DNA of 64,000 nt, taken from the NCBI RefSeq assembly GCF_963664555.1, contig NZ_OY761461.1, positions 3,947,769 through 4,011,768 of the forward strand. Reading direction: 5' to 3'. The translations under genes and the position numbers were made by a program. This DNA comes from Labilibaculum sp. GTDB lineage: Bacteria > Bacteroidota > Bacteroidia > Bacteroidales > Marinifilaceae. Below are positions 8,081 to 64,000 of the stretch, piece after piece. Numbering within the stretch: position 1 is the stretch's first letter; every line of letters begins with the position of its first letter. The notes beneath the pieces were generated by a model. It saw only the letters and a list, made by a program, of their open reading frames with translations, was not told where the DNA came from and did no database searches.

Positions 8081-8631
8081 ATTTCCCCTTTAGCTTTTAG
8101 CTCGCTTAAAAGCAGACTAAGAGTTTTTATTCCTTTAGCCATTGCCGGAGCTGAAATAGTGGCTCCGGAAATTCCATCAATATCTTTTCCAAATTCCATC
8201 TCCTCTCCTCCTACTTTTCCAATAAACTGCTTCAACCACGATTTAGCCATAATTTCGCCGCCATAGGAAGATCTGTAAATTAGTACCACTACTTTTTGAA
8301 TCTCCAGTTTTTGATTGAACAGAACCATATAATCAAAAAAGTCATTCTTCCCTTTTGATGATGCAAAACAAGCAAATCCCATTAATTTATCCGCCTCCTT
8401 TAGGGTACTCAAATGTAAATCTCTTAGCCCCTCACAATTAAAAGTATCCAAATTTAGATTGTCAATATCATCCATTATCAAATCTTCAGAAGTGAATATT
8501 TTCTGAACTTCTTTTTCAATTTTTTTCTGTATTGATTTAGGAAAACTACTTGCCCTTGCACTAAACACTCCACTAATCAAAACAAAAATAACCACTGGCT
8601 GCAGAATACTTATCCATCTTTTCATCAACAA
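8077..8631 (-). CDS. Exported FMN-binding domain protein
   Basis: 184 aa with an N-terminal signal or anchor helix (about residues 5-28, ending ARASS; ATG 8625 is an equally possible start). The C-terminal half resembles the FMN_bind domain of RnfG/NqrC-type proteins. It carries DGISGATIS at about residues 152-160, matching the [ST]GAT flavinylation motif in which the Thr takes FMN covalently from ApbE. It is probably a small periplasmic electron carrier (inference); no Rnf/Nqr genes and no ApbE are nearby. It lies 79 bp downstream of the porin gene on the same strand. The stop overlaps that of mntP. Confidence 0.75.
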   Translation of the reverse strand: MLMKRWISILQPVVIFVLISGVFSARASSFPKSIQKKIEKEVQKIFTSEDLIMDDIDNLNLDTFNCEGLRDLHLSTLKEADKLMGFACFASSKGKNDFFDYMVLFNQKLEIQKVVVLIYRSSYGGEIMAKSWLKQFIGKVGGEEMEFGKDIDGISGATISAPAMAKGIKTLSLLLSELKAKGEI

Positions 8632-11896: not shown

Positions 11897-13420
11897 ATGA
11901 TCAAGAAGATTTCAAAAGTCCTTGTTGCAAATCGAGGAGAAATTGCTCTGCGCGTTATGCGATCATGCAGAGAATTAGGAATTCTTTCTGTTGCTGTTTA
12001 CTCCGATGTCGATCGAACATCTATGCATGTGCGATATGCCGATCAGGCAGTTCATATCGGAGCTGCAACATCAGCCGAAAGTTATTTAAATATTGATAAA
12101 ATCATAAACGCAGCAAAACGTGTTAAGGCTGACGCCATACATCCCGGCTATGGATTTTTAAGCGAAAATGCTGAATTCTCAAAACGCTGTGAAGAAGAAG
12201 GTCTCATTTTTATAGGTCCAACTCCCGAAGTAATTGCGACAATGGGTGACAAAATCACTGCTCGCCAAACCATGATTGCAAGTGGCGTTCCTGTAGTTCC
12301 AGGGACTAAAGAAAACCTAAAAGATGAATCGACAATACTTAAAACTGTTCGGGAAATAGGTTTGCCCGTAATGATTAAAGCTTCAGCCGGAGGTGGTGGA
12401 AAAGGAATGCGAATGATCGACAAAGAAGAGAATATTCTGGAAGGGCTAAGAGCTGCAAAATCAGAAGCCATGGCATCATTTGGTGATGACGCTGTTTATA
12501 TCGAAAAATACATTTCTTCTCCTCATCACATCGAATTTCAGATACTTGGTGACAAACACGGAAATGTAATTCATCTTTGCGAAAGAGAATGCTCCGTTCA
12601 AAGACGACATCAGAAAGTGGTGGAAGAAACTCCGTCTCCGCTGATGACCGCTGAATTAAGAGCACAAATGGGAGAACATGCTGTTGCTGCCGCTAAAGCA
12701 GTTAATTACCATGGAGCAGGCACCATTGAGTTTCTGGTAGACAATAACCACAACTACTATTTCCTCGAAATGAATACACGATTACAAGTCGAGCATCCTA
12801 TCACCGAAAGGGTAACCGGATACGATCTTGTGAAACAACAAATTTTAATTGCAGAAGGACATGAATTGAAAATGAAACAAGAAGATATTTTTCAATTTGG
12901 ACACGCAATCGAATGCAGAATTTATGCGGAAGATACAGACAATAACTTTATGCCGAGCCCCGGAGTGATAACCCACATTACTGAACCAATGGGTTTAGGG
13001 GTTAGAACCGATGGTTACGTTTATGAGGGATACGAAATCCCAATTCACTACGACCCAATGATCTCAAAATTAATTATTTGGGCCAGAACAAGAGAGGAAG
13101 CGATTGAACGAATGCGGCGGGCTCTTTTCGAATATAAAATTACAGGTGTAAAAACCTCAATCAAATATCTAGAAAAAATCATGGATTGTCCTGACTTTAG
13201 AAACGGCACCTATGATACTCACTTTATTCAAAAAAACGAAGATTTTCTTCTTGGTGCCGATGAAGCCAAAAAGTCTTTTGAAGATCTGGCCATAGTTACC
13301 GCCTTTGTCAATTATCACAACAAATTGAAAAGCTCTCAAATTTGTCCAAAAGCATCGATGCAAAACAAGTGGAAAGAATTTGGACGCAGAAGGGGAATGT
13401 TTAGAGCAAGTGAAAACTAA
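11897..13420 (+). CDS. accC: Biotin carboxylase subunit of an acyl-CoA carboxylase
   Basis: ATP-dependent carboxylation of biotin on the carrier protein. 507 aa, about 55 residues longer than classical AccC, with a C-terminal extension typical of propionyl/acyl-CoA carboxylase alpha chains. N-terminal KVLVANRGEIALRVMR, the ATP-grasp glycine loop KASAGGGGKGMRM (residues about 157-169), ERECSVQRRHQK and the active-site EMNTRLQVEHPITE are all intact. The carrier and carboxyltransferase genes follow on the same strand (gaps 22 and 99 bp), so the enzyme is a three-subunit complex. Propionyl-CoA is the likely substrate given the PccB/MmdA-type third subunit; acetyl-CoA cannot be excluded. Confidence 0.92.
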   Translation: MIKKISKVLVANRGEIALRVMRSCRELGILSVAVYSDVDRTSMHVRYADQAVHIGAATSAESYLNIDKIINAAKRVKADAIHPGYGFLSENAEFSKRCEEEGLIFIGPTPEVIATMGDKITARQTMIASGVPVVPGTKENLKDESTILKTVREIGLPVMIKASAGGGGKGMRMIDKEENILEGLRAAKSEAMASFGDDAVYIEKYISSPHHIEFQILGDKHGNVIHLCERECSVQRRHQKVVEETPSPLMTAELRAQMGEHAVAAAKAVNYHGAGTIEFLVDNNHNYYFLEMNTRLQVEHPITERVTGYDLVKQQILIAEGHELKMKQEDIFQFGHAIECRIYAEDTDNNFMPSPGVITHITEPMGLGVRTDGYVYEGYEIPIHYDPMISKLIIWARTREEAIERMRRALFEYKITGVKTSIKYLEKIMDCPDFRNGTYDTHFIQKNEDFLLGADEAKKSFEDLAIVTAFVNYHNKLKSSQICPKASMQNKWKEFGRRRGMFRASEN

Positions 13421-13442
13421 AAGACAAACAAAAAATAATAAA

Positions 13443-13952
13443 ATGGCAATTGAAATAAAATTGGGCGAACGCATGGCAAAAGTTGAACTTTTAGCCGAAG
13501 AGGGAAATCAAATTAAGATAATGGTTGACTCCAAAGAGTATGATTTGGATATGCTGCAGGTTGAAAATGGCGTATACTCTGTTCTATATAAGGGCAACTC
13601 CTATAATGTGGAATTAATTGAAACTGATTCTCCAAAAAAGTATTCAGTCAACACATTTTACCATTCCTATGATGCTGAAATTATTGATGCTGAAACCAAA
13701 TATCTGCAAGCACGAAACTCGGGCAACCTTGAAGCTGCGGAGAGTACAATCACCTCACCAATGCCCGGAAAGGTAGTTAAGATTCCTGTTGAATTGGGCA
13801 GTGAAGTAAAAAAGGGAGACACCGTAATTATTGTATCAGCAATGAAAATGGAGAGCGAATACAAAGCCATGAAAGATGGTATTGTAAAAGAAATCTATGT
13901 TCATGAAGAGGATATCATCGACGGAAATCAACCTTTGGTGTTTATTGACTAA
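13443..13952 (+). CDS. Biotin carboxyl carrier protein of acyl-CoA carboxylase
   Basis: 169 aa. The C-terminal about 70 residues form a biotinyl domain (TSPMPGKVVKIPVELGSEV, then the biotin-attachment motif SAMKMES, whose second Lys-side residue is the biotin acceptor). The N-terminal half is a beta-rich linker domain seen in acyl-CoA carboxylase carriers. The ATG at 13443 is chosen over an in-frame upstream ATG at 13380 because the latter lies inside accC. It sits 22 bp after accC in the same operon and swings carboxybiotin between the two catalytic subunits. Confidence 0.9.
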   Translation: MAIEIKLGERMAKVELLAEEGNQIKIMVDSKEYDLDMLQVENGVYSVLYKGNSYNVELIETDSPKKYSVNTFYHSYDAEIIDAETKYLQARNSGNLEAAESTITSPMPGKVVKIPVELGSEVKKGDTVIIVSAMKMESEYKAMKDGIVKEIYVHEEDIIDGNQPLVFID

Positions 13953-48927: not shown

Positions 48928-49516
48928 TGGCTTTTTACTGTTTCCTTTCCCACAATGACTTTTGAAACTAGATTGGAGTAAAAAATATTGTTATTACCAG
49001 TTAAGTTTCACTTATCTGTAAGCTTTCAACAAAATACAGAATGCAAATTGCCCCTTTACCATACAATAAGCTTAACGAAAAAAAGCTTTGCTAAAGTTTC
49101 AAATGTACTGCGTTTAAAAGATAATCTGATCATTTCCACTGGAAATTTATGATCCACACATCTACAACTGATTAAAATAGCCGTATGATATAATATGTTT
49201 CATTTATAATATCATTAATGAAGCCTATTTGGAAAATAAGCGGAATGCCCGATCCCGATGATCGGGAAAAACCCCTGACCGACTTTTGCCGATGCCCCGG
49301 GGAGAGAACGCCATATTTCCTCTTTTCATAAACTTGGCACATTTGACAGGTTAAAATTTTATTAATTCTACTTAACTTGCTTACCTCACCATACAAAATA
49401 AAAAAAAAGCACTGTATTACAGTTAATTAAAACCACTAAAAAAAAACAAAGCAATATAAAAATATTATCATATGACAATTGATTTATTATAACATATTAC
49501 TTAAAACCGTATCGCA
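48928..49516. other. 589-bp non-coding region upstream of the cas operon
   Basis: No credible gene; a short frame here reads as nonsense. Mostly AT-rich, but 49241-49310 is a GC-rich island including a perfect palindrome-like arm pair TCCCGAT-G-ATCGGGA (49253-49267) and CCCCGGGG (49295-49302). The last 100 bp before cas6 are very AT-rich and probably contain its promoter, but no consensus match was clear. Confidence 0.6.
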
Positions 49517-50299
49517 ATGAGATTTGAATTGACATTAAACCGCACCACAAAGCAACGCATGTTACCCATGGATTATCAGTATTACATTAGTGCGTGGATT
49601 TACAAAGTATTGAAACATGCTGATGCCGACTTTGCCAATTTCCTGCACAACAAAGGCTATGGGAAGAACGAAAACGACAGCAAACTTTACAAACTGTTCT
49701 GCTTTTCGAGATTGAACTTTGGAAAACCTAAACTCTGGAAAGAGAAAAAACTGTTTGAAATTTCTGCTCATGAAATTAAACTGCAAATTTCGTTCGATGT
49801 GAACAAGGCGGCCAGTAATTTTATTAAAGGACTGTTTATGGCACAGGAATTTTATCTGGGCGATAAATTCAATGGAATCGATTTTAAGGTTTCCAATGTA
49901 GCTGCCTTACCCGAACCTGAGTTTACTGAAAATATGCACTACCATTTGCAAACGCCGTGGGTGGTGAGCTATCAAAAAGAAAATGACAAACACCCACAAT
50001 ATCTTTCGCCTAAGGATAAACTATTCGATAGCCTGACAGTAAAGCATCTGACTGAGAAATACAACAACACCCGCCAGCCAAAATTAATTAGCCCCGTACA
50101 AATCAATGCTAAAAGACTAAACGATTTTAAACGTGCTGGTTTTGTAATGAAACCCGGAACCAAAGAACAAAGCCGCATTGTTGGTAATTTATTTGAATTT
50201 GAACTAAATGCTCCTCTTGAAGTGCACAAAATGATTTGGAATGCCGGATGCAGTGAGAAAAGTTCGAGTGGTTTTGGTTGGGTTGAGAAGATTGATTGA
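49517..50299 (+). CDS. cas6: CRISPR-associated endoribonuclease Cas6
   Basis: 260 aa. Cuts the pre-crRNA within each repeat, leaving an 8-nt 5' handle (family knowledge; here the repeat 3' end gives ATTGAAAT). N-terminal RAMP-type strand MRFELTLNRTT, then YYISAWIYKVLKHADADFANFLH, and the C-terminal Gly-rich loop CSEKSSSGFGWVE typical of Cas6. First gene of the cas operon. The next cas gene is separated from it by 964 bp containing the 215-aa ORF, which is unusual. Confidence 0.9.
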   Translation: MRFELTLNRTTKQRMLPMDYQYYISAWIYKVLKHADADFANFLHNKGYGKNENDSKLYKLFCFSRLNFGKPKLWKEKKLFEISAHEIKLQISFDVNKAASNFIKGLFMAQEFYLGDKFNGIDFKVSNVAALPEPEFTENMHYHLQTPWVVSYQKENDKHPQYLSPKDKLFDSLTVKHLTEKYNNTRQPKLISPVQINAKRLNDFKRAGFVMKPGTKEQSRIVGNLFEFELNAPLEVHKMIWNAGCSEKSSSGFGWVEKID

Positions 50300-50331
50300 G
50301 GAAATGAGTTTACGAAACCCCTGCCTGCAGC

Positions 50332-50481
50332 AAAGAAATAAGCGCTTACAGTGAAACAGTAAGCATTTACAAACAAGAGACAGGTGCTGACAAGAAAGAA
50401 ACAAGTACTAACACGAAAGAAATGGATGCTTACAATAAGGAAATAGGTAGATGCAACAAAGAAATACCTGTACGCAGCTAT
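50332..50481 (+). repeat. Degenerate 21-bp tandem repeat, about seven units
   Basis: Units starting with GAAAT/GAAAC/GAGAC occur at 50335, 50353, 50377, 50398, 50419, 50440 and 50461; spacings are 18, 24, 21, 21, 21 and 21 bp. A typical unit is GAAATGGATGCTTACAATAAG. Read in frame it gives heptads such as KEMDAYN and KEIGRCN, but a stop lies just upstream and there is no ATG before the fifth unit, so it is probably a decayed coding repeat. It is located between cas6 and the 215-aa ORF. Confidence 0.7.
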
Positions 50482-50552
50482 GAATTAACTCCCCTCCGTA
50501 TGGAATTGTTCATCCATGGGGATAAATCAATAATTTTAAATTACACAGTATT

Positions 50553-51200
50553 ATGAATCAAAGACAAATGAACAGCAAGCACATGTTGGATGTCTCGCTA
50601 TCCTATCTCAATGCAAATTCTGCAATTTGGCAAAGCGTTGCCAAAATCGGCGAAGTAAAAAACCAACTTGATGCCATTAGTCTGGCCATAGACAATGCTG
50701 CCGACGAGCAGGAACAATCGCAGGTGGCGATTGGGAAAATTAAACTGACACTTAAACACACAATCTGCGAAAAGGCCGATATTTTAAACGATGTTGTTGA
50801 GGTATTTGCCCTGATGAATGATAAGCCTGAACTGGCCGACAAAATGAGCGATAGTGCTTCCGACTTGTTTAAAATGAAAAACGAAGACATGCTGCGCCGT
50901 GTAAAACAGATTATTAGCGCAGCCAGCGAAAATCAAGAAGCACTAACTGCCGGTTACGGACTTACTGCCGAACAAATTACCGATCTGCAAGCCGACTGCG
51001 ACCACTTTCTGGAACTGAACGGACAACCGCGCGAATACCAAATTAAATCGGGCATGGCTACAAAAAGCCTCGAAGAACTTATTTCGGAAGCAAATAACCT
51101 GCTTTCGAATCAGCTCGATAACCTGATGAAAATTTTTAAACGCCACAACTCTTCCTTCTATAACGGTTACCTAAAAGCCCGCATGGTGGTGGATTATTAG
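50553..51200 (+). CDS. Helical Bacteroidota hypothetical protein inserted in the cas operon
   Basis: 215 aa, almost entirely alpha-helical and rich in Ala, Leu, Glu, Asp and Lys; no signal or membrane helix. Blocks IGKIKLTLKHTICEKADILND, MLRRVKQIISAASENQEAL and EANNLLSNQLDNLMKIFKRH resemble a family of uncharacterised Bacteroidota proteins that I remember as often multicopy (not verified). It is not a known Cas protein: no RAMP, nuclease or HEPN motif seen. Its base composition is slightly more GC-rich than the cas8b gene that follows. A strong hairpin between it and cas8b (51216-51248) suggests it may be its own unit. Either passenger or new component. Confidence 0.7.
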   Translation: MNQRQMNSKHMLDVSLSYLNANSAIWQSVAKIGEVKNQLDAISLAIDNAADEQEQSQVAIGKIKLTLKHTICEKADILNDVVEVFALMNDKPELADKMSDSASDLFKMKNEDMLRRVKQIISAASENQEALTAGYGLTAEQITDLQADCDHFLELNGQPREYQIKSGMATKSLEELISEANNLLSNQLDNLMKIFKRHNSSFYNGYLKARMVVDY

Positions 51201-51215
51201 ACTGAATACTTAAAT

Positions 51216-51248
51216 AAACCTTCAAGAACTATTTGTTCTTGGGGGTTT
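51216..51248. terminator. Hairpin between the 215-aa gene and cas8b
   Basis: 14-bp stem AAACCTTCAAGAAC / GTTCTTGGGGGTTT (two G-U pairs), 5-nt loop. There is no long T-run on the plus strand, so it may attenuate rather than end transcription. It starts 16 bp after the 215-aa gene and stops 15 bp before cas8b. Confidence 0.6.
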
Positions 51249-51263
51249 AAAAACTGCAAATAT

Positions 51264-53081
51264 ATGCTAGATACAGTTATAAAAATTGGAAAACTTTACC
51301 GCGAAGCTCCTGATGCCCATAAATATCATGAGCAAATAAACCATGTTTGGAGCGAAGTTGAGAATCTACGAAAACAGAAAAACAAAGACGGCAATCCTAT
51401 TGATGTTGTTTTTTACGAATTACCTGTTTTAGATAAAGGAGATTCGTTTGAATTTGATTTCGATAACTTAATGGAAATCGAAGATGAAGATAAACAAAAA
51501 GGGCTATATAGGCTTAACTTTAAAACATCCTCTAATGATGCAACATCTAAATATTTATTCGGTGATATTGTCCATTCTTTCGTTAATGAGAAAAAGAAGA
51601 ATGGTAACATTGTTACAGATGATAAAGGCTCATATAAACTATATTCAAAAAGTGATAACAGTATTATCGAGAAACCCTCATTCATCCGATGCAATGATTT
51701 TGCCACAAAAGTTGAAAATCCTGTGATTTATAAATTTAGGAATGAGTTCAATAAGCATATTTTAAAAATACATTCTCTTTTCAAAGTAGATCACATCACT
51801 ATTCTTCACTTTAAGTTTAATGAAGGAAGTTGGCTTCAATTATCAGGAATAGTAAAATTTATTGATTCTGTAATTGCTCAAGAATTTGTTGAAAAAAGCC
51901 CTAAAGATGGAACGTTTATTCTAAAGAAAAGCTTGTATAAATCTTTAATAGGAGGAGAACATAATTATTACGGCGGAATACCAAACTTCAATCGAGAAAA
52001 AAATGCATATAAAGGCAGAACATTTAGTGAAGAAGAACTCATGAATATTGTTTATGCCAAGAAAGCATATGCAAATCCAACAATAAATTGTGGGGCTTAT
52101 AAAGTAAACGTAATGCCATATCATGATACTATCACAAAAGATATACTTGAAGACTTTTATTCTAGAGATTCTTACGCACTAAGCAACGAAATTAAGAGTG
52201 AAATTAATATAATCAACGAATTTGAAGAAGAGAATCCATTCGATAATTTTTTTGCTCCAATGCTTGATAAAACTTTTCATGACAAGACAACATTTGATGT
52301 TACGTTCATTTGGTTTAACGGAACCAAAAAGAGTTATGAAGATTTTGTAGAAGTCGGAACTATGGAACAAAGTCTTATAAAGAAAGTAGCACTTCAAGTA
52401 TTAGATGCAAAAAATAACATCAAGGATTTGTCGGAAAAAGATGGAGTTTTAAAACACCCTTATAAGACAAATATTTTAAATTCATTAAAAAACTTATTGG
52501 CAAATGTGAAACGAGGAGATTCATTCCTGAACTCACACTATTTGAATATAATACCCAAAATCTATACAAATACTTATTATCAGGATATTGTATTGCTACC
52601 TTCATTCATTGAACAACTTGAGTTAAAAATACGCGATGCTGAAAAACACTTAAAACTATATGAATTCTATATCCTTAAATACGACTTCTATTTTTTAATG
52701 AACATCCAAAAAAATAATAATCTTATGAAGATCACAGAAACAAAAAGCTATGCTTTGGGTAAAAACCTAGGCATAATGGCAGAGCAATTTGCCGCATGGC
52801 GTAAAGATTGTCCGATTAAATCATTTGAAAAAGCTTATGTTGGAAACCTTTCCCGAAGAATCACCACAATAGATGAATTGGTTAAGTTTTCTGGTTTTAT
52901 TAATGAAAAACTTACTATTCACGGCAGATTATATCCTGATGTGAAAAATGCCTATTTGCAATTGGTCGAAACCATCAATCTTTTTGAAGGCGAAAAATAT
53001 AATCGCAACAATTGTGCATTAGGCTTTTTTGAAAGTTACTATGGCAAAACAAATTCAAACAACGAACAACAAAACAATTAA
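51264..53081 (+). CDS. cas8b: Type I-B Cascade large subunit Cas8b (TM1802/Csh1 group)
   Basis: 605 aa. Large subunit of the type I-B effector complex; contacts the PAM in related systems. Recognised by position (before cas7-cas5-cas3), size, and blocks in the N-terminal part (ELPVLDKGDSFEFDFDNL) and C-terminal part (LGKNLGIMAEQFAAWRKDCPIKSF) as seen in TM1802-like proteins. Low overall conservation is normal for Cas8. The ATG at 51264 follows a 16-nt spacer with a purine-rich stretch. It precedes cas7 by 12 bp. Confidence 0.85.
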   Translation: MLDTVIKIGKLYREAPDAHKYHEQINHVWSEVENLRKQKNKDGNPIDVVFYELPVLDKGDSFEFDFDNLMEIEDEDKQKGLYRLNFKTSSNDATSKYLFGDIVHSFVNEKKKNGNIVTDDKGSYKLYSKSDNSIIEKPSFIRCNDFATKVENPVIYKFRNEFNKHILKIHSLFKVDHITILHFKFNEGSWLQLSGIVKFIDSVIAQEFVEKSPKDGTFILKKSLYKSLIGGEHNYYGGIPNFNREKNAYKGRTFSEEELMNIVYAKKAYANPTINCGAYKVNVMPYHDTITKDILEDFYSRDSYALSNEIKSEINIINEFEEENPFDNFFAPMLDKTFHDKTTFDVTFIWFNGTKKSYEDFVEVGTMEQSLIKKVALQVLDAKNNIKDLSEKDGVLKHPYKTNILNSLKNLLANVKRGDSFLNSHYLNIIPKIYTNTYYQDIVLLPSFIEQLELKIRDAEKHLKLYEFYILKYDFYFLMNIQKNNNLMKITETKSYALGKNLGIMAEQFAAWRKDCPIKSFEKAYVGNLSRRITTIDELVKFSGFINEKLTIHGRLYPDVKNAYLQLVETINLFEGEKYNRNNCALGFFESYYGKTNSNNEQQNN

Positions 53082-53093
53082 AATATTTATATC

Positions 53094-54095
53094 ATGGAAA
53101 ATACAATAGAAAAATCAGAAATTTTATTCCTTTTCGAAAGCAAATACACTATCCCAAACGGTGATCCTTTTACGGGAGAACAACGTTACGATGAAGAAAC
53201 CAAAAAAGTATTGGTATCCGATGTACGAATTAAGAGGTATGTACGCGACTATTTTATTGAGCAAAACTTTCTGTTTCCGAACACTTTTGAAGTGTATGTA
53301 TTCAACGACAAATCACAAGTTGCTGAAGGAAGCAAAGAATCTGGTTCTTCTGCCCGAATGAAATCCTTGTGGGCAAAATATATTGACAAGGAGTGTGCTG
53401 GCCAAGAAATGACTGATGCTGATAAAAAGAAAGAAGCCAAGAAAATAATGGATGCATTAAAAAAAGATAAAAAACTCGACAAAACTGCTCTTGAACTACT
53501 AACAGGCTGTATCGATGTTCGATTATTTGGAGGCATTTCGACAGAAGAAGGTGCCGCTGTTAATTTAACTGGACCTGTTCAGTTTGCTCTTTTAAACCCA
53601 TCATTAAATAAATCGGAATTACGTATCCATCAAAACACGTCTGTATTCTCCTCAAGTGCTGACAAATCCCGTGGTTCAATTGGAACGACAACCGTGGTTC
53701 CCTATGCTATCAACCAAATTCAAGGATGGGTAAATCCTTATTCCGGCAAATTAAGTGGCTTAGAAACAAAGGATATTAACGACTTATTCAAAGCCATGTG
53801 GAACAGTGTAAACAACATTAATACCCGAAGTAAATCGAACCAAAGCTCGGTTTTGATGCTCCAAATTGTTTACAAAGAAGCAACGGATAAATTATACGGC
53901 ACAGACAGGCTAATAGGTATTGAGTCGGAAAAAGAAGATGAACAAATCCGTTCAATGGAGGACTATACTTTAAATTTTGAAAAACTAAAGGCGATTACCA
54001 GCTCTCCTAAAATTAAAGAGATTCGTTTCTATACAGAAATTGAATCCATTAAAAACGAATTGAAAGGAGATAAATTCAAAGAAATGACACTCTAA
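53094..54095 (+). CDS. cas7: Type I-B Cascade backbone subunit Cas7 (Csh2)
   Basis: 333 aa. Forms the helical backbone on the crRNA. N-terminal EILFLFESKYTIPNGDPFTG and RYDEETKKVLVSDVRIKRYVRD (conserved DVRIKR-like thumb start), CIDVRLFGGISTE, LTGPVQFAL and the Ser-rich TTTVVPYAINQIQGWVNP fit the Csh2 branch. ATG 53094. cas5 begins one base after its stop, so translation is likely coupled. Confidence 0.93.
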   Translation: MENTIEKSEILFLFESKYTIPNGDPFTGEQRYDEETKKVLVSDVRIKRYVRDYFIEQNFLFPNTFEVYVFNDKSQVAEGSKESGSSARMKSLWAKYIDKECAGQEMTDADKKKEAKKIMDALKKDKKLDKTALELLTGCIDVRLFGGISTEEGAAVNLTGPVQFALLNPSLNKSELRIHQNTSVFSSSADKSRGSIGTTTVVPYAINQIQGWVNPYSGKLSGLETKDINDLFKAMWNSVNNINTRSKSNQSSVLMLQIVYKEATDKLYGTDRLIGIESEKEDEQIRSMEDYTLNFEKLKAITSSPKIKEIRFYTEIESIKNELKGDKFKEMTL

Positions 54096-54096
54096 G

Positions 54097-54792
54097 ATGA
54101 AAGCGATAAAATTAGAAATAAAAGGCAATTGGGCGCAATTCCGTAAGGCCGAAACTAATAATAATCCGCTTTCGCACGATTTCATTACTAAAACTGCCTT
54201 TATTGGAATGATTGGAGCGGTGCTTGGGATTGAACGAAACGATATGAAACCCTTGTTCCCCTTGCTAAGTGAAGGTTTTATGTATTCTGTTCAAGTGAAC
54301 AATGAAGTTGTAAAACAATCGTGGGGTTTTACTTTAAGAAATGTTTCTAATTGCTGGGATAAAGCACCGAAACAGATGGAGTTTATCAAACATCCCAGCT
54401 ATACGGTTGTACTGGCATTAAAGAATACGGAATGCAAAGACTACTTCGATCGGTTTTGTTCGTTTTGCAAACAAGGGAAAGCTTGCTATACACCTGTTTT
54501 AGGTTTGCACAACTGCCCTGCAGAGATTAAGTTTCTTGAAGAAGGTGAGATTGTTGAGAAGAACGGAACATTTACAACTTTCGGTTTTATTACAGATAAT
54601 TATCCACCGTTAATGGACGATTTAACTTCGTTCAGAATTGGATTTGATAAGATTCCAACCTTTCAGAACGACGATTTTTGGAATTTGCCTGAAAAGTTTT
54701 GCAAGGTGGTATATCCTTCAAATCAATCCACATTAAAATCGGAAGGAATCTATTTTGAATTTAATAACAAATCACAATGGTGCATGATTTAA
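54097..54792 (+). CDS. cas5: Type I-B Cascade subunit Cas5
   Basis: 231 aa. Caps the 5' handle end of the crRNA. N-terminal RAMP-type strand AIKLEIKGNWAQFRKAETNNNPLSHDFITKTA, cut here to its family parts: GNWAQFRKAE and PLSHDFITKTAFIGMIGAVLG (the conserved Cas5 N-terminal Gly-rich turn), then CYTPVLGLHNCPAEIKFLEEG near the middle. The 3' end overlaps cas3 by 16 bp. Short Cas5h type. Confidence 0.9.
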   Translation: MKAIKLEIKGNWAQFRKAETNNNPLSHDFITKTAFIGMIGAVLGIERNDMKPLFPLLSEGFMYSVQVNNEVVKQSWGFTLRNVSNCWDKAPKQMEFIKHPSYTVVLALKNTECKDYFDRFCSFCKQGKACYTPVLGLHNCPAEIKFLEEGEIVEKNGTFTTFGFITDNYPPLMDDLTSFRIGFDKIPTFQNDDFWNLPEKFCKVVYPSNQSTLKSEGIYFEFNNKSQWCMI

Positions 54793-57200
54793 AATTTGAA
54801 TCGCATCCGGGTAAATTATTGGAAGAACATATAAGGGGAGTACAAAAGGGTACTCTTCTTCGTTCTGCTTTGCCTATTGCGGAAGTAGCAGCTTTGTTTC
54901 ACGATTTGGGTAAAATTAACCCGAATTTTCAGAACAAACTGTATGGGAAAAGCAATGGATATGCAAATCACTCCTATTTATCGGTAATTGGCTGGGTTAA
55001 TTATGCCTTGGTCAATATGAAAGATATAATGAATAATCAAGGTCTAAAAAATCAAGAAGAACTTTCTTTGTTTATTTTACAAATTGCGGTACTTATAGGT
55101 AAACATCACCAAAACCTGCCAAATTTCGACAAAGTTTTCATTGGTTCGGAGGAATTAATTAGGGCTACTGAATTTGCTAAAGAAAATGGACGTAATCTCC
55201 CTATGAATGAATTTCTAAATAAAACATTGAAGTTAGATTGTGCATCATTCGAATTAAAGTGGGGAAAACAAGAAAATATGTTTGTTTCTTTTTTGTCCAA
55301 GTATCAAAAGAAAGCATGGAAGCAATCGCCTTTAAAATCCTTTATGGATACTCAGGAGGCTTTTGCTGCATTAGTTGAATCAGATAAAAGAGATGCAGGA
55401 AAAAATAAAGATTTCTTTTTTGACGAAAATATCGAAAAAAACACGATACAGCTCTCTGAAAATCTGGAACTCACTTTTGACAAGTTTGAAAAGTCCCCCA
55501 ATAATTCAAAACTTAATATTCTTCGTACACAAATACGATTACAAGCCGTTGAAAGAATCAAGAGTAAGTTAACTACAGATGAACGTGTTTTTACACTTAC
55601 TGCACCTACCGGAGCAGGAAAAACGTTTACAATGCTTTCTGTTGCTAATGAGATTCGAAAGCAAAAGGGAAATCTTGGCATCATTTATTCTCTTCCCTTT
55701 TTATCAATCACTGAACAGGTACAAAAAATTGCCGAAGAACTTCTAGATGATGTACTTTCCGTAAACTCAAAAACAGAAAATGAGCGCATCAAAAAAGCAC
55801 AACAATCGTATGAAAACGATCAATCGAACAATAATTTAAAAGAAATATTGAAAGAAGACTTTATTCACAATACATTCGACCATCCTTTTGTAATAACAAC
55901 GTTTATTCAGTTTTTTGAAACGCTTTTGAGCAACAGAAATTCCACTTTACTAAAGCTCCCAAACTTTAAAAACCGCATTTTCTTAATTGATGAAGTACAG
56001 GCGCTACCACCGCGTTTGTATATTTTCTTTTCGGCATGGTTAGATGAATTTTGCAGGAGGAACAATTCTTTTGCAATACTATCAACTGCAACCATGCCCA
56101 AGTTGGCCATTCCAATTAAAGATACAGATGAAGACTGCAGAGCAGATTTGTTATTTCAGGATTACTCGGTGCCGAATGAACTAATCGATTGCAAAAAATA
56201 TTTTGCAGAAGATATTTTTAATCGCTACCAAATAGAAGTGCTTTCCGATCAACAAACCAATGAATCGTTGGTAAACCATATCCTTGAATTAGACAGGTCT
56301 TGCTTAGTAATATTAAATACAATTGCCGATACAAAAAAACTTTACAATGAACTGAAGGGAAAATCGGTAAATATTCTTCTGCTGAATACACATTTTATTC
56401 CCGATGACAGAACAAGAATAATAGAACAAGCTCAAAATTTACTAAAAGTCAACAAAAAAGTAATTTTAATATCAACGCAGCTAATTGAAGCAGGTGTTGA
56501 TATCGACTTCCCTGTCGTTTATCGTGACATGTGTCCCTTACCAAGTCTTATTCAAAGTGCAGGCCGTTGCAATAGAAATAATAATTTAGATAAAGGACAG
56601 GTGTACTTCTTTGAATTGGTTAGCGATAATGGTCGCTCCCGAGCAAGACTAATTTATCGGGATGAAGGAAAAAAGTTTCTTGATTTCTGTCGCAAAGAGA
56701 TACCAGCATCAATAAATGAAAACGAGTTGTTTGAGGTGCAATCAAAATTCTTTGAAAGCATTCGCCAAAATCTCACAATAGGTGAGTTTAAATCTATAGA
56801 AAACACCGAAAAATCATACAATATGATTAAATGCATAAATAATGCTGAATTCGAAAACCTTGGGAAATTCAAACTCATCAATAATAATATTGGAGAACAA
56901 GTACAATACTATATTTTAGAAAATGAAGCTGACTCCTGCTATGAAAGGCTTAACGAATTACTTACTGAGCTTAAGACACAAGAAGATTATGCAAATACCA
57001 AACGCATAAAAATCAAAATCAGCGACTTTATTAAGCAATTAAGTGGTCGTATATTGAACATCCGAGTTAATCAATACAATAAAGCTCAAATGCCTCAACA
57101 ATATCTAGCTGACATTATGGATATAAAATTCATCACAATGGATAATTACTCTTCCACCGAAGGATTGATTCTTGATAACATTGAAAACTGCTTCTTATAA
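54777..57200 (+). CDS. cas3: Type I-B Cas3 helicase-nuclease with N-terminal HD domain
   Basis: 807 aa. Degrades target DNA after Cascade recruitment. The HD nuclease domain is N-terminal (residues about 1-230) with HDLGK at 42-46 and a second HH in GKHHQNLP. Helicase domain: Walker A APTGAGKTF (about 276-284), DEVQ box IDEVQALPP (about 404-412) and motif VI SAGRCNRNN (about 594-602). The C-terminal accessory domain follows. Start ATG 54777 lies inside the end of cas5. Cas3'' and Cas3' are fused here, unlike some I-B systems where they are split. All core catalytic residues visible. Confidence 0.95.
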   Translation: MVHDLKFESHPGKLLEEHIRGVQKGTLLRSALPIAEVAALFHDLGKINPNFQNKLYGKSNGYANHSYLSVIGWVNYALVNMKDIMNNQGLKNQEELSLFILQIAVLIGKHHQNLPNFDKVFIGSEELIRATEFAKENGRNLPMNEFLNKTLKLDCASFELKWGKQENMFVSFLSKYQKKAWKQSPLKSFMDTQEAFAALVESDKRDAGKNKDFFFDENIEKNTIQLSENLELTFDKFEKSPNNSKLNILRTQIRLQAVERIKSKLTTDERVFTLTAPTGAGKTFTMLSVANEIRKQKGNLGIIYSLPFLSITEQVQKIAEELLDDVLSVNSKTENERIKKAQQSYENDQSNNNLKEILKEDFIHNTFDHPFVITTFIQFFETLLSNRNSTLLKLPNFKNRIFLIDEVQALPPRLYIFFSAWLDEFCRRNNSFAILSTATMPKLAIPIKDTDEDCRADLLFQDYSVPNELIDCKKYFAEDIFNRYQIEVLSDQQTNESLVNHILELDRSCLVILNTIADTKKLYNELKGKSVNILLLNTHFIPDDRTRIIEQAQNLLKVNKKVILISTQLIEAGVDIDFPVVYRDMCPLPSLIQSAGRCNRNNNLDKGQVYFFELVSDNGRSRARLIYRDEGKKFLDFCRKEIPASINENELFEVQSKFFESIRQNLTIGEFKSIENTEKSYNMIKCINNAEFENLGKFKLINNNIGEQVQYYILENEADSCYERLNELLTELKTQEDYANTKRIKIKISDFIKQLSGRILNIRVNQYNKAQMPQQYLADIMDIKFITMDNYSSTEGLILDNIENCFL

Positions 57201-57712
57201 TGCAAATAACTGGAACTCTTATATCATATTACTTTTACTGTCATCGAAGAATGTGGTTACATGCCAATGATATCCGGTTTGAGGATAATTCGGAAGATGT
57301 AGCCATGGGAGTATTAATTGAAGAAACCTCTTACCAACAACGCTCATCCAAATATGAACAAGTTGAAATTGGCCCCATAAAAATCGATTTTTACGATGCA
57401 AAAAACAAAGTAATTCATGAAGTTAAAAAGTCAAGTAAATTTCACGAAACACATATCTGGCAGGTAAAGTACTACATCTATGTATTGGAATTAAATGGTA
57501 TAGAAGGTGTAACCGGCATACTCGAATATCCGAAGGAACGCAAAACGGAAGAGGTGTTTTTGAGTATCCCCGATAAAGAGAGAATTGTTGAATTACTTGA
57601 GGAAATTGATAAAATTATACACTCCGATAAATGCCCTGAAGCCATAAATCAGCCAAAGTGTAAAAAATGCTCTTACTACGATTTTTGTTATAGTTCTGAA
57701 GAAGAGAACTAA
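57200..57712 (+). CDS. cas4: Cas4 nuclease
   Basis: 170 aa, RecB-type nuclease with an iron-sulfur cluster, trims prespacer ends during adaptation. YYFYCHRRMWLHAND holds the first cluster Cys; catalytic HEVKKSSKFHETHIWQVKYYI contains the (D/E)xK and Q motif, and the C-terminal QPKCKKCSYYDFCYS gives the three remaining Cys. The start codon overlaps the cas3 stop (TAATG), so the two are translationally coupled. Confidence 0.93.
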   Translation: MQITGTLISYYFYCHRRMWLHANDIRFEDNSEDVAMGVLIEETSYQQRSSKYEQVEIGPIKIDFYDAKNKVIHEVKKSSKFHETHIWQVKYYIYVLELNGIEGVTGILEYPKERKTEEVFLSIPDKERIVELLEEIDKIIHSDKCPEAINQPKCKKCSYYDFCYSSEEEN

Positions 57713-57743
57713 TATCATTATTACTTGAATTTAATCGTTGAAA

Positions 57744-58748
57744 ATGAAAAAAACATACTACCTATTCAATCCTGGCCGTTTATCGCGAAAGGATAACACA
57801 CTAAAATTTACACCTGTTGATGAGGAAGGAAATGATTTGAAACCCCGCTATTTGCCAGTTGAACAAGTTGACCAATTGTATGTATTGGGATCGTTGGATG
57901 CCAATTCGGCTCTTTATAACTTTTTAGGTAAAAATGATATTGCCGTGCATTTTTACGATTACTATGAAAACTACACCGGATCGTTTGCTCCGAAATGTAA
58001 ATTGCTTTCGGGAAAAATGCTGATAGCCCAAACCCAGGCCTATTTAAAAAAATCAAAACGTATTGTTGTTGCCCAGTCTTTTATCGAAGGAGCTTCGTTT
58101 AATATGCTTAAAAACCTGAGGTATTACGATAACAGAGGTAAAGATTTGATGCCAGTAATTGATAGTATTGAGCTCCTTCGGGAAAAAATTGGTGAAACAA
58201 AGGAAATTGATGAATTAATGGGCATTGAAGGAAATATCCGGAAAAATTATTACGATGCGTTCAATTTAATTATCAATGATCACGAGATGGGAATACGCAC
58301 CAAGCGCCCTCCTTTAAATATTGTAAACTCTCTCATCTCATTTGGCAATATGATGTGCTATTCGGAATGTTTGCGTGCCATTCAGAAAACTCAGCTGGAG
58401 CCTACCATTAGTTTCCTGCATGAACCCGGAGAACGGCGATTTAGTCTGGCTTTGGATTTGGCTGAAGTTTTCAAACCTTTTTTAGTAGATCGGGTTATTT
58501 TTAAGGTTTTAAACAAAAAAGAAATTCAGGAAAATGATTTCGAAGAAAAATTGAACCGAATTGTTTTAAAAGAGAAAGGAAAGAAAAAGTTTATACAGGC
58601 TTTTGAAAAACGATTGGAAGAAACCATAAAACACCGAAGTTTAAATAGAAGTGTGAGTTACAAGCATCTGATAAAATTAGAATGTTATAAATTGCAAAAA
58701 CATTTGTTGGACATAGAAGAATATAAACCGTTTAAAATTTACTGGTAA
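57744..58748 (+). CDS. cas1: Cas1 integrase (type I-B)
   Basis: 334 aa. Metal-dependent integrase that inserts new spacers at the leader end, with Cas2. ATG 57744 is preferred over a TTG 6 bp upstream, since it matches the usual N-terminus KKTYYLFNPGRLSRKDNTL. Catalytic acid in MGIEGNIRKNYYDAFN (Glu), then LHEPGERRFSLALDLAEVFKP (His and Asp). These are the expected E-H-D residues. 31 bp after cas4. Confidence 0.96.
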   Translation: MKKTYYLFNPGRLSRKDNTLKFTPVDEEGNDLKPRYLPVEQVDQLYVLGSLDANSALYNFLGKNDIAVHFYDYYENYTGSFAPKCKLLSGKMLIAQTQAYLKKSKRIVVAQSFIEGASFNMLKNLRYYDNRGKDLMPVIDSIELLREKIGETKEIDELMGIEGNIRKNYYDAFNLIINDHEMGIRTKRPPLNIVNSLISFGNMMCYSECLRAIQKTQLEPTISFLHEPGERRFSLALDLAEVFKPFLVDRVIFKVLNKKEIQENDFEEKLNRIVLKEKGKKKFIQAFEKRLEETIKHRSLNRSVSYKHLIKLECYKLQKHLLDIEEYKPFKIYW

Positions 58749-59014
58749 TGTATGTAATTTTGGTTTACGACATGGGCGAAAAGCGTGTAGGAAAAATGTT
58801 GAAATTGTGCAGACAATATTTAAATTGGATTCAGAATTCGGTTTTCGAAGGCGAAATAACAGAGGTTAAATTAAAAGAACTAATTTTGAAAGCTGAATTT
58901 ATTATGAATGAGGAAGAACGCGATAGTTTGATCTTATTTAAAAGCAGAGAACAAAAATGGTTGGAAAAAGAAGTAATTGGACATGAAAAAAATGATTTGG
59001 ATCAATTCTTATAG
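58748..59014 (+). CDS. cas2: Cas2
   Basis: 88 aa. Dimer scaffold for Cas1 in spacer integration. MYVILVYDMGEKRVGKMLKLCRQYL begins with the usual beta strand and Asp (VYDMGEKR), then WIQNSVFEGEITEVKLKEL. Start overlaps the cas1 stop (TAATG). Last gene before the leader and array. Confidence 0.95.
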   Translation: MYVILVYDMGEKRVGKMLKLCRQYLNWIQNSVFEGEITEVKLKELILKAEFIMNEEERDSLILFKSREQKWLEKEVIGHEKNDLDQFL

Positions 59015-59237
59015 TTGTCGATAAGTCATTACAGGTCATCCCTCTCCCCTTTTAAAACATGTGACTTCGACCTTAACGTTCTTTGACATATCGAAAAAAC
59101 TAATGTTTCGTCCATGTTGTCGAAACCCTATCTTTTTTATACTTTTACACATCGACAACTAAAGCTTGTTGTTTTAGCCACATCTTAGAATCTTAATTTA
59201 TTGATTTTCAGATGTTTTTTTTTGAGTCGTCGGTCGA
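59015..59237 (+). promoter_or_regulatory. CRISPR leader with candidate promoter
   Basis: 223 bp between cas2 and the first repeat, with no gene. AT-rich. It has GTTCTTTGACATATCG at 59080-59095, a motif like those in other Bacteroidota leaders, and a candidate promoter TTG (59117-59119), 20 nt, TACTTTTA (59140-59147). The array would be transcribed toward the right, in agreement with the repeat orientation ending in ATTGAAAT. Confidence 0.75.
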
Positions 59238-62200
59238 CTCTCAATCGCACCATACTGGAATTGAAATAAAGATCTAAACGTGTTGAAAAACATATGGTCG
59301 AAGCTCTCAATCGCACCATACTGGAATTGAAATCTATTGAACGAATACAAAGGAATTGATTATTTAGGACTCTCAATCGCACCATACTGGAATTGAAATG
59401 ATTCAGAGTTTGTGTCAAGAACATGGTGAAGATTACTCTCAATCGCACCATACTGGAATTGAAATATTATCTCAACACACTTATTATCGTTTTTAAAGGC
59501 CTCTCAATCGCACCATACTGGAATTGAAATAAGTATCATTTATTGATGTTGACACTCTAACCGGAAACTCTCAATCGCACCATACTGGAATTGAAATATG
59601 CGATACATCAAAGGGGTATATCTGCAAAATGTTCTCTCAATCGCACCATACTGGAATTGAAATCACGAAGCGATTCACGGATACGTAAAGAATTACGGAC
59701 TCTCAATCGCACCATACTGGAATTGAAATATGAATCAATTAGGCGTGTATATGAACCTAATGGACTCTCAATCGCACCATACTGGAATTGAAATAAAGTA
59801 ATATTAGCCAGTACTCCCCGGGGAAAGAACTCTCAATCGCACCATACTGGAATTGAAATAATGTTTCAAATATAATCGAAGTGATAAACAGTGATACTCT
59901 CAATCGCACCATACTGGAATTGAAATAAGTTGGAAGTGTAGCTTTAAAAGGAATTGGAACGGCTCTCAATCGCACCATACTGGAATTGAAATAGAAGAAT
60001 ATTGCTGATTTTGAAAGCTGGATATCTGCTCTCAATCGCACCATACTGGAATTGAAATGTAGTCCTTATTGATTAACTCCTGTTCGGCCTTGATTCTCTC
60101 AATCGCACCATACTGGAATTGAAATGGCAGATTTAAGGTTTCGATGGTGCCGGAGCGTTGTCTCTCAATCGCACCATACTGGAATTGAAATTCCCATCGA
60201 CTGCGTTTTGTAACCTTTCGTTACGTCCTCTCAATCGCACCATACTGGAATTGAAATATGATCGAGTTAGGTCGCAGACCTGATCGATTAGGTACTCTCA
60301 ATCGCACCATACTGGAATTGAAATAAAATTAAAGCATATACAGATTCTAATAATGCTCAAACTCTCAATCGCACCATACTGGAATTGAAATCTACCAATC
60401 CTGATTACATCGTCACCAACCGCAGGACTCTCAATCGCACCATACTGGAATTGAAATTCATTTCATTAAAACACTCTTTAAAGATGGCTAAACTCTCAAT
60501 CGCACCATACTGGAATTGAAATACAGGAATAATTGACGGCGGGGACATTATTGTAGCCTCTCAATCGCACCATACTGGAATTGAAATAAAATCTGTAAGT
60601 AAACGTGCCGGTTATGCACTTAGCTCTCAATCGCACCATACTGGAATTGAAATATTACCAATGGCACCTCAATAGATATATCTGCATCCTCTCTCAATCG
60701 CACCATACTGGAATTGAAATCACAACAAACCTTACTATAATGTATTCAACAACAAGCTCTCAATCGCACCATACTGGAATTGAAATTGCCAATGCGGGTT
60801 GCCGATGATGGTCAGATAGAATCTCTCAATCGCACCATACTGGAATTGAAATTTTTAAATTCTTTATTGGGAAGTTTTTGGGAAGTTTCTCTCAATCGCA
60901 CCATACTGGAATTGAAATGCGAATGGGGATTTTACAACCCACCAATTTTTTAGTCTCTCAATCGCACCATACTGGAATTGAAATTTGTCTAGATTGGAGG
61001 CGTTATTTACAATGAATATGCTCTCAATCGCACCATACTGGAATTGAAATAGACTCTCAATTTATAAGCTGAATTAATACCACCGTCTCTCAATCGCACC
61101 ATACTGGAATTGAAATATTGGTATTGTAACAAGGTTTTGTGGCGGCCCTATCTCTCAATCGCACCATACTGGAATTGAAATATTACTACTGTCAGAGATC
61201 GTAAGGAAAAAGAGAAGCTCTCAATCGCACCATACTGGAATTGAAATAGGATAAAACGTGAGCAACTATTGAAAACTATGGAGGCTCTCAATCGCACCAT
61301 ACTGGAATTGAAATCACATAAATAATGTGAGTGTGACGTGGGTTTACAAGCTCTCAATCGCACCATACTGGAATTGAAATACTATTAATGTTTGTCCGGC
61401 TGAACTACTTACGCAGCTCTCAATCGCACCATACTGGAATTGAAATATCAGAACAGGAGCATACCGTTTCATTAATGCCGTTCTCTCAATCGCACCATAC
61501 TGGAATTGAAATCATGCAAAGGATCATCCTCATTTTCAACATTCCCAGCTCTCAATCGCACCATACTGGAATTGAAATTCGGAATCCGTACTCTCTCTCG
61601 TTTTCTGCAAAAGCTCTCAATCGCACCATACTGGAATTGAAATAATTTAATGCAAATGCAGGGGCGTAGGTTTGCGGTACTCTCAATCGCACCATACTGG
61701 AATTGAAATAACCAACTCACCTCACACCCAAAAAGAAGAAAAGGACTCTCAATCGCACCATACTGGAATTGAAATATTTTAATGAATGATGAAGATGATG
61801 CAGCCTATGACTCTCAATCGCACCATACTGGAATTGAAATGTTCTTGATGGTAGGGCACTAAATCCAATCCTAAACTCTCAATCGCACCATACTGGAATT
61901 GAAATACTTGAAGTATTCTGCTGTTAATGTCAGACATGCTAACTCTCAATCGCACCATACTGGAATTGAAATTAAGCAGCAAAAAGATCTTTCTCCCCGG
62001 CAATATGAGCTCTCAATCGCACCATACTGGAATTGAAATCCAACAATGTATTCACGATTGGCACCTACAAACATGCTCTCAATCGCACCATACTGGAATT
62101 GAAATATGCATCAAGCAGATCATCATCAATTGAATCGCTATCTCTCAATCGCACCATACTGGAATTGAAATACGTTCACTTTAAAGTTAAGAACCGGCAA

Positions 62201-64000
62201 CCAGGTAACTCTCAATCGCACCATACTGGAATTGAAATCATTTACCAACATGGGGGCACCTACATTTTCGAGGCTCTCAATCGCACCATACTGGAATTGA
62301 AATCGATTAACAACAAAGGCAGTGTATACCAATGCTTTAACTCTCAATCGCACCATACTGGAATTGAAATGGTCATCGTAAGAAGTCTGACCCGTTCCGT
62401 TTAAAATCTCTCAATCGCACCATACTGGAATTGAAATAGCTTTTCAATGTGTTTATTCAAAGAATCATGCGAACTCTCAATCGCACCATACTGGAATTGA
62501 AATAATACTTTAACATCGTAGTTTTCACCTTGCATGAACTCTCAATCGCACCATACTGGAATTGAAATTTACGATGGTGTGAATGATGTATTTACCGCAG
62601 AAGGCTCTCAATCGCACCATACTGGAATTGAAATAGAAGATTGTTGTATTGGGAGAACTGAAATGTCATACTCTCAATCGCACCATACTGGAATTGAAAT
62701 CGACATATTGTGTTCTGTAATGGTATCTCACAGTCAACTCTCAATCGCACCATACTGGAATTGAAATGTAAGAAGAAGACCGTATTCAATCGTAGTATTT
62801 GATCTCTCAATCGCACCATACTGGAATTGAAATACCAATACAAGCCCAATGATGGCACAACAGTCACAGCCTCTCAATCGCACCATACTGGAATTGAAAT
62901 AAAGGATACAAAACCTGTATTATCGATGATCACGATCTCTCAATCGCACCATACTGGAATTGAAATTCAATATAAACAAATTGGTAATGCTGTTCCTGTC
63001 AACTCTCAATCGCACCATACTGGAATTGAAATTTAATTCGTCCGGGATTAACAATCTATTTGGTTGGCTCTCAATCGCACCATACTGGAATTGAAATATT
63101 TACGTAGGCTGCACACCAGGGATAACCTTTCCCTCTCTCAATCGCACCATACTGGAATTGAAATGGAGCATACTCAACAATAAAATCTGGCATAAAGAAT
63201 CTCTCAATCGCACCATACTGGAATTGAAATTCCGGAAAAACAACTTCTCTGAATGTAAACTTTGGTTCTCTCAATCGCACCATACTGGAATTGAAATTAA
63301 GCGATCAGCAATTGGCCGATTACTGGTTGTTAACTCTCAATCGCACCATACTGGAATTGAAATCCTTCGACAAAGCAACTGCTAAAGGGCAAAGCTTTTC
63401 TCTCAATCGCACCATACTGGAATTGAAATTACCCCGCGCCAAAGACTCAAACGTATTTTCATTGCTCTCAATCGCACCATACTGGAATTGAAATAAATTT
63501 GCAGGTTGAGTTTGGAAACATTCAAAATTCTCTCAATCGCACCATACTGGAATTGAAATATTGCCGTAAGCTTGTTTACTATATGGCGCGATATCTCTCA
63601 ATCGCACCATACTGGAATTGAAATCCGAAATCACCGCCTCGCAGTTGGAGGGCATTTTTCTCTCAATCGCACCATACTGGAATTGAAATCTTTGTTCTAC
63701 ATTATTGTCCATCATCTCAATAGCTCTCTCAATCGCACCATACTGGAATTGAAATAAACCCAGTTCTTAATACGCTTTTTATTTGTCTTCTCTCTCAATC
63801 GCACCATACTGGAATTGAAATATCATCACCAAAGCTTTAGCAAAATCATTTTCTGATGCTCTCAATCGCACCATACTGGAATTGAAATGATGTAACAGAC
63901 CCAAAACATCTAAAGAAGATGTTACTCTCAATCGCACCATACTGGAATTGAAATTAATCATTAAGCTTATTTCTCTTAATATTTTCTCTTGCTCTCAATC
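59238..64000 (+). CRISPR. Type I-B CRISPR array: 72 full repeats and start of a 73rd; 72 spacers; continues past the window
   Basis: 30-bp repeats starting CTCTCAATCG and ending GAATTGAAAT, first at 59238-59267, last full at 63925-63954, partial 73rd at 63992. Spacers are 35-37 nt, unit about 66 bp. All repeats counted by eye look identical, without the degenerate terminal repeat (that end is outside). Repeat 3' end ATTGAAAT is the expected Cas6 handle for I-B. Many spacers are open in a forward frame. Short frames found on both strands here are translations of the repeat (SQSHHTGIEI, FNSSMVRLR) and are not genes. Confidence 0.98.

Follow-up and report, generated by a model that had tools for sequence, protein, structure and literature searches.

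Tandem repeats of constant size were described by Subirana and Messeguer as noncoding arrays of 20–21 nt units whose sequences are unrelated between arrays (PMC8161180). Their paper treats Bacillus and mentions 20–23 nt repeats in individual species of many bacterial groups; its main text contains no word starting with Bacteroid. Such fixed-size noncoding repeats are presented there as having no known function, and a hypothetical protein partner requiring a constant repeat size is proposed in section 4.1 without a partner gene being named (PMC8161180). The arrays reported here resemble those repeats in their length fixed at 20–21 nt, their unrelated sequences and their noncoding character (stops in all three forward frames in 30 of 47 arrays), and differ in lying upstream of the genes of one protein family. 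This pairing of a gene family with 21-bp arrays is seen throughout the phylum Bacteroidota and is so far unexplained. A protein family encoded directly downstream of such arrays offers a testable handle on the puzzle.

Modular exchange of CRISPR–Cas effector modules is known. The locus studied here shares with it the retention of the adaptation genes and the CRISPR repeat next to a different interference module; it is distinguished by a left border that, in near-identical loci, sits immediately after a non-Cas unit; one of these loci (G059) carries two cas6 genes. Another likeness is to REP-associated tyrosine transposases, as single genes for REP-associated or IS200-like transposases, identified by eye, occupy the cas6–cas8 gap of related loci (L102, L108, L110, L113 and L117); the gene in our locus, in contrast, has no transposase domain and is accompanied by a 21-bp array. 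A last point of contact is with CHAD-domain proteins (PF05235). The family members L095–L097 stand immediately behind a CHAD-like gene in an operon-like arrangement (the gene at L097 matches Pfam CHAD at 1.8e-22, and there are three CHAD matches among the neighbours), whereas our protein itself has no CHAD match in Pfam.

The locus lies in a 64-kb stretch of Labilibaculum DNA, called the window and analysed at its full length of 64,000 nt. The 964 bp between cas6 and the gene at the cas8b position are filled by a 21-bp-period array, a 215-aa gene, for which we coined the label helP, and a hairpin. The features are as follows, in window coordinates.

49517 to 50299, forward strand: cas6, which precedes helP in each of the five loci with helP (Pfam Cas_Cas6_C, 3.6e-18; NCBIfam cas_cas6, 2e-23; synteny).
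50323 to 50499, no strand assigned: degenerate 21-bp-period tandem array upstream of helP (autocorrelation at lags 21 and 42; TRF core 50375–50422).
50553 to 51200, forward strand: helP, whose all-helical 215-aa product belongs to a Bacteroidota family that has no model in Pfam or NCBIfam (ORF, orthologues, dN/dS, AlphaFold2 model).
51215 to 51249, forward strand: terminator-like hairpin of the helP unit, whose end (about 51250) is the left breakpoint of the putative interference-module swap.
51264 to 53081, forward strand: gene at the cas8b position, first of the apparently exchangeable interference module (no library model matched).
53094 to 57200, forward strand: cas7, cas5 and cas3, the rest of that module (Pfam; other genes stand at this place in G059 and G005).
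57200 to 57712, forward strand: cas4, with the right putative swap breakpoint inside it at about 57350–57450 (identity to G059 rises from 0.52–0.74 to 1.0 between 57300 and 57500).
57738 to 59014, forward strand: cas1 and cas2, the adaptation module common to the window and G059 (Pfam; in G059 both proteins are the same from the second residue onward).

The initial annotation had placed here an intact gene for a helical protein with no known Cas domain, in the same direction as its neighbours and accompanied by a degenerate 21-bp repeat and a hairpin, and this description holds in every part. The helP reading frame runs from ATG to TAG in the direction of cas6 and of the cas8b-position gene. 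Orthologues with 81–97% identity, dN/dS values of 0.09–0.29 among the five helP genes of cas loci, and an all-helix AlphaFold2 model of mean pLDDT 94.3, with one helix of 59 residues, establish that helP is a real gene and is under purifying selection. It has no match above the Pfam cut-off, none among NCBIfam families at E≤0.01, and no recognised Cas domain in either library. Pfam does match Cas6, Cas7, Cas5, Cas3, Cas4, Cas1 and Cas2 of the same locus. Neither Pfam (E≤1) nor NCBIfam (E≤0.001) has a match for the cas8b-position gene, so that its name reflects position and size only. In fold searches with the helP model no DNA-binding fold stood out: Foldseek returned no solved or viral structure significant at E≤0.001, and VIA-align matched it only to various long helical bundles, with Z no higher than 8.8. 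The best PDB match by sequence (E 0.00034) was a designed helical repeat and was read as chance. The protein is acidic, with a pI of 5.1 and a net charge of −8. Rfam over 49300–51600 produced one match, far under its gathering score.

The extra gene is probably not a CRISPR gene but a copy of an undescribed bacterial family that is usually paired with upstream 21-base repeats. At 1e-5 as many as 349 of 393 genomes match, a tally inflated by a C-terminal CarboxypepD_reg-like domain that is common to other proteins and often extends the members; membership was therefore defined by a match to the helical domain, using a profile built in this analysis. Across the whole helical part, most aligned members have 17–28% identity to helP, and three reach 47–68%. 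The family reaches other orders and classes of Bacteroidota: of 395 genomes sampled, 16 match at 1e-8 (the genome of the window counted in, some matches partial). Many genomes hold several scattered copies, the surroundings are varied with no common neighbour, and most members sit among housekeeping genes. The pI of the members has a median of 7.7, with 33 of 60 above 7; a basic paralogue type, that of L093, has a pI of 8.95. Weak matches to NCBIfam PQLLE_fam occur in 7 of 60, under the cut-off where seen. The genome of the window has one distant paralogue, whose upstream flank aligns between Labilibaculum species and whose array has different units and a period of 84 bp, four times 21. Open-licence papers yielded no description of the family or of its association with arrays, and we do not claim its absence from print.

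The TRF core of the window array (50375–50422) comprises 2.3 copies with a score of 61, and lag analysis extends it to about 50323–50499, the sole array at lag 21 or 42 reaching 0.6 in the whole window. Among lags from 10 to 60 bp, 21 or 42 scores best, and above 0.6, upstream of 38 of 52 family genes; two others give 41 or 43, one gives 12 and 11 have none above 0.6. Downstream, 0 of 48 family genes has an array at lag 21 or 42. Both counts derive from 54 listed genes, from which two with less than 400 bp upstream and six with less than 400 bp downstream were dropped, the duplicates L051, L054 and L056 being omitted. The asymmetry recurs outside the order, with arrays upstream of 17 of 22 genes and downstream of two (28 loci with six partial matches dropped, several sharing a genome, scored over 900 bp at lags 20–22 and 41–43 by a slightly wider rule). 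When surroundings of up to 20 kb are scanned, an array stands upstream of 41 of 58 genes and downstream of one, and seven, the downstream one included, lie elsewhere in 1,079 kb; these 58 genes, in 59 loci picked for long contigs, overlap the set of 52. A quarter to a third of family genes lack a clear array, the CHAD-linked L095–L097 among them.

The repeat length of 21 is constant: lags 21 and 42 dominate, other lags are few or none, and the exceptions are 41 and 43. Array length has a median of 234 bp. The sequence of the units, on the other hand, mostly changes. Over distant pairs, consensus units, obtained by plain folding at 21 and poor where indels occur, match at 9.8 of 21 positions against 9.6 when shuffled, and the likeness is 9.78 on the same strand against 9.50 on the opposite one (pairs not independent). 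Between the window and its 81%-identical orthologue 11 of 21 positions match, the background mean being 9.8, and the period is kept. Some close pairs, 67–88% identical in protein, share 13–20 of 21 positions, and some pairs at 63–81% are at background. The close-pair and same-strand likeness would be compatible with a sequence component. Sequence-specific co-evolution of protein and unit is not needed, though it may contribute. The hexamer GAAATA is present in 8 of 44 units, with a shuffled mean of 0.8 and a largest shuffled maximum of 7 for any 6-mer. A coding array, specifying a heptad peptide upstream of helP as G060 suggests, was rejected as a rule in view of the 30 arrays with stops and the periods near 41 or 43; one open frame is kept in 17 of 47.

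The reading of arrays as a general mark of family-bearing genomes is not supported. Twenty control pieces from 19 such genomes contained five arrays in 400 kb, some of them maybe coding and one (L153, 19791–20000) extending into the upstream region of a family gene, against two in 20 pieces, again 400 kb, of eleven genomes considered to lack the family (best match no better than 1.6e-11, or none in G004 and G013). Only G231 is rich. In this satellite-rich genome (L130–L148), regularly spaced pieces totalling 380 kb contain 21 arrays of period 21 or 42, whose units differ; by eye most fall between genes, one is inside an acidic ORF and none is beside a family gene, and each of 12 other lags gave 0 or 1. 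Arrays thus exist without an adjacent family gene.

The hairpin behind helP has a stem of 15 bp and −20.0 kcal/mol, and ends 14 nt ahead of the next ATG. A hairpin occupies the equivalent place in all five helP cas loci, its sequence common to the window and G059 and different in the other three; the distance to the next ATG is 14–17 nt in four of the five, and in G059 the first gene begins further downstream. This closeness suggests that expression of the interference genes would require either read-through of the hairpin or a promoter within helP. Strong terminator-like hairpins (z<−2 against mononucleotide shuffles) follow 38 of 59 family genes within 75 nt. The repeat and the hairpin had earlier been taken as separate oddities of the cas gap; both are there, and both recur at family members unlinked to cas genes.

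What might a helical protein do with an array of this kind? We propose, with about even confidence, that array, gene and hairpin form a stand-alone unit of Bacteroidota, kept in the cas locus by selection as a resident and not as a Cas part, whose protein reads the phase of its own array. Copies of the unit, each made up of a mostly noncoding array of 21-bp period, a single helical-protein gene and a hairpin resembling a terminator, would be spread through the phylum. One such unit may have arrived between cas6 and the interference genes, in a single event followed by losses or transfers or in two events, and selection would have maintained it there without its joining the machinery of Cas6 or that of any single interference complex. 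Its protein, possibly oligomeric, would act on the array upstream of its own gene, reading the spacing of two helical turns and not the base sequence. Twenty-one bp corresponds to two turns of B-DNA; together with the largely variable sequence and the position ahead of one gene, this constant step suggests that what counts is spacing along one face of the helix. The array would then serve as a phased DNA platform that sets the expression of the unit or local DNA structure. The acidity of helP and the array-less CHAD-linked members are points against a simple DNA-binding view. A wider and more speculative version, which we regard as rather unlikely, makes the family the protein partner of constant-period 21-bp bacterial satellites, recognising, maintaining or generating arrays by counting two turns regardless of sequence, and doing so genome-wide in genomes like G231. 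If true, it would amount to a phase-reading chromosome-structuring system that acts first at its own gene and, in G231-like genomes, throughout the chromosome.

The strongest competitor invokes RNA: the array could be a transcribed leader or small RNA, with the protein binding the repeat RNA or the repeats tuning translation. In favour of this are the position of the array upstream of the gene (a median of 193 bp before the ATG), the terminator-like hairpin at the other end and the distribution of TANNTTTG, which we take to be a promoter-like pattern: it is found 0.98 times per kb ahead of the array and more rarely, 0.46 times per kb, from the array to the ATG. The promoter scan is weak, however, with TANNTTTG present in 11 of 47 loci in the interval from −200 to +20 bp around the array start and no clear strand bias; moreover, the units have no clear excess of self-complementarity (mean z 0.5), and RNA alone does not account for a strict 21-nt period. 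We consider it an unlikely explanation.

Could helP be instead a true accessory component of CRISPR–Cas, for example a partner or scaffold of Cas6? Full-length helP at 81% identity or more is found in five loci, the window included, and in each of them cas6 comes immediately before it. The four others are G059 (L030; helP 97% identical), Labilibaculum manganireducens (G005, L032; 92%), G060 (L031; 88%) and a member of the Salinivirgaceae (G061, L033; 81%). These genomes represent two bacterial families; in the distant pair helP is more conserved than cas6 (81% against 65%), and it is under purifying selection. Conservation at the locus across two bacterial families would also be compatible with a function connected to Cas. 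Yet a survey of cas6 speaks against such a component. There were 59 other matches at E≤1e-30 in 393 genomes of the order, of which 29 were read with flanks of up to 1.5 kb. Three of these (L111, L112, L119) have too little sequence after cas6 to be judged, leaving 26. The genome of L111 is G356, whose first piece ended inside cas6; with its second contig (L258) added, helP is absent from 27 of 27 other judged cas6 loci. Three loci (L107, L117, L122) hold only 333–587 bp after cas6, and another gene follows there. On the G356 contig cas6 is followed after about 25 bp by cas8-like, cas7-, cas5-, cas3- and cas4-like genes, named by eye, with no helP. Furthermore, helP is independent of the type of interference module: the five loci carry three different modules, and homologous cas8 genes are found both with and without it. 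The third cas8-like gene, in G061, has homologues (37–43% identical) at L101 and L104, and that of the window has a 49% homologue over 204 aa at L108, all of them loci without helP. Family members elsewhere are mostly unlinked to cas genes, and the array and hairpin are like those of the unlinked members. An accessory role is in our judgement improbable.

The initial annotation had weighed a passenger against a component of adaptation, interference or regulation, and had looked to scattered homologues and absence from sister loci as the signs of a passenger; its interpretation is supported in part. Scattering was found: linkage to cas genes is no rule for the family, with five loci linked and the other members examined mostly unlinked. 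Absence from the nearest sisters was not, helP being present in all five loci; it is missing from the 27 other judged cas6 loci, among them that of G356, where cas6 is joined directly to cas8. From these 27 loci, and from homologous cas8 genes with and without helP, we infer that helP looks like a maintained resident of the locus rather than a part of adaptation or interference. On the cas6 tree its presence needs two changes, as the Salinivirgaceae row groups with rows lacking helP; on the helP tree a member outside cas loci (L055, 68% identical) falls among those of cas loci with weak support, a topology compatible with one origin.

For CRISPR biology the locus provides a natural case of near-identical loci in which the whole interference module differs, cas6, cas1, cas2 and the repeat are kept, and one border lies at a non-Cas unit. 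Over 5,711 aligned positions, starting at kbl and ending at window position 51252, the window shares 97.9% identity with G059. Beyond it, identity falls from 1.00 to 0.46 in one 50-bp step, returning to 1.0 within cas4 by 57500. Past this point Cas1, Cas2 and the 30-bp CRISPR repeat are shared (72 exact copies in the window, 18 in the G059 contig), and the left border of the differing module is the helP hairpin. A long CRISPR array with this 30-bp repeat at a spacing of about 65–67 occupies 59237–63888 and runs past the window into L038. The module of G060 is the one in the window. The alternative in G005 and G059 consists of a second cas6 (TIGR01877, 5.4e-28), a 204-aa protein, cas3, a 466–530-aa protein, a protein with a weak DevR/Cas7 match (under cut-off) and a REP-transposase-like gene (NF047646 at 6.4e-16 in G005, under its cut-off), the models having been run on G005. 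As the alternative module (L045/L046 in G059, L036 in G005) brings its own cas6, each of these loci has two different cas6 genes. Interference modules may have been exchanged behind the helP hairpin by recombination, with a second crossover in cas4.

Such an exchange raises the idea that the unit is chiefly a recombination hinge, a conserved module-border sequence for the exchange of defence cargo. The module difference begins right behind the hairpin, and in G047 (L035, contig G047:C79) three helP 3' ends of about 55–62 codons each (7995–8222, 11069–11359 and 13400–13825) separate defence-like cargo genes. Copies 1 and 2 have 155 bp in common at 89% identity, a preceding segment of 173 bp repeats at 91%, and the cargo matches the PADLOC candidates PDC-S22 (4e-126), PDC-S02 (3e-25) and, weakly, PDC-M50A (1e-6), together with an HNH effector domain. 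Among the first 25 of 45 matched families, at least four or five of the 117 nearest neighbours of 59 family loci match models judged defence-specific, against 0 of 117 control genes (one-sided Fisher p 0.03 if five). But most family genes lie among housekeeping genes, and selection acts at the level of the protein, which a passive anchor would not need; a hinge can be a by-product. We regard the hinge as a long shot beside the maintained phase-reading unit. A selfish or mobile element seems very improbable: the scattered copies with no common neighbour, a tyrosine-recombinase-like gene (by eye) near the close relative L083, and a distribution in cas loci that does not follow the cas6 tree point that way, but helP has no transposase or integrase domain in Pfam, no close relative was found among 72,556 plasmids, 50,697 phages and the IMG/VR contigs, and the upstream flank of the Labilibaculum paralogue is aligned between species.

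Overall, the helP family does not count as one of defence genes, its link to them being weak. The neighbour matches counted were Avs2, a SAVED-HNH effector, type IIG, type I restriction and PDC-S15, two of which may be one protein; generic matches (mad3, DndA/SspA, E1-E2 and others) were set aside by judgement. The nearest helP relative outside cas loci (L055 in G412) adjoins a divergent Avs2 gene, and downstream of the family gene at L099 lies what appears by eye to be a CBASS-like operon, with an HNH effector, a nucleotidyltransferase and an E2-like gene.
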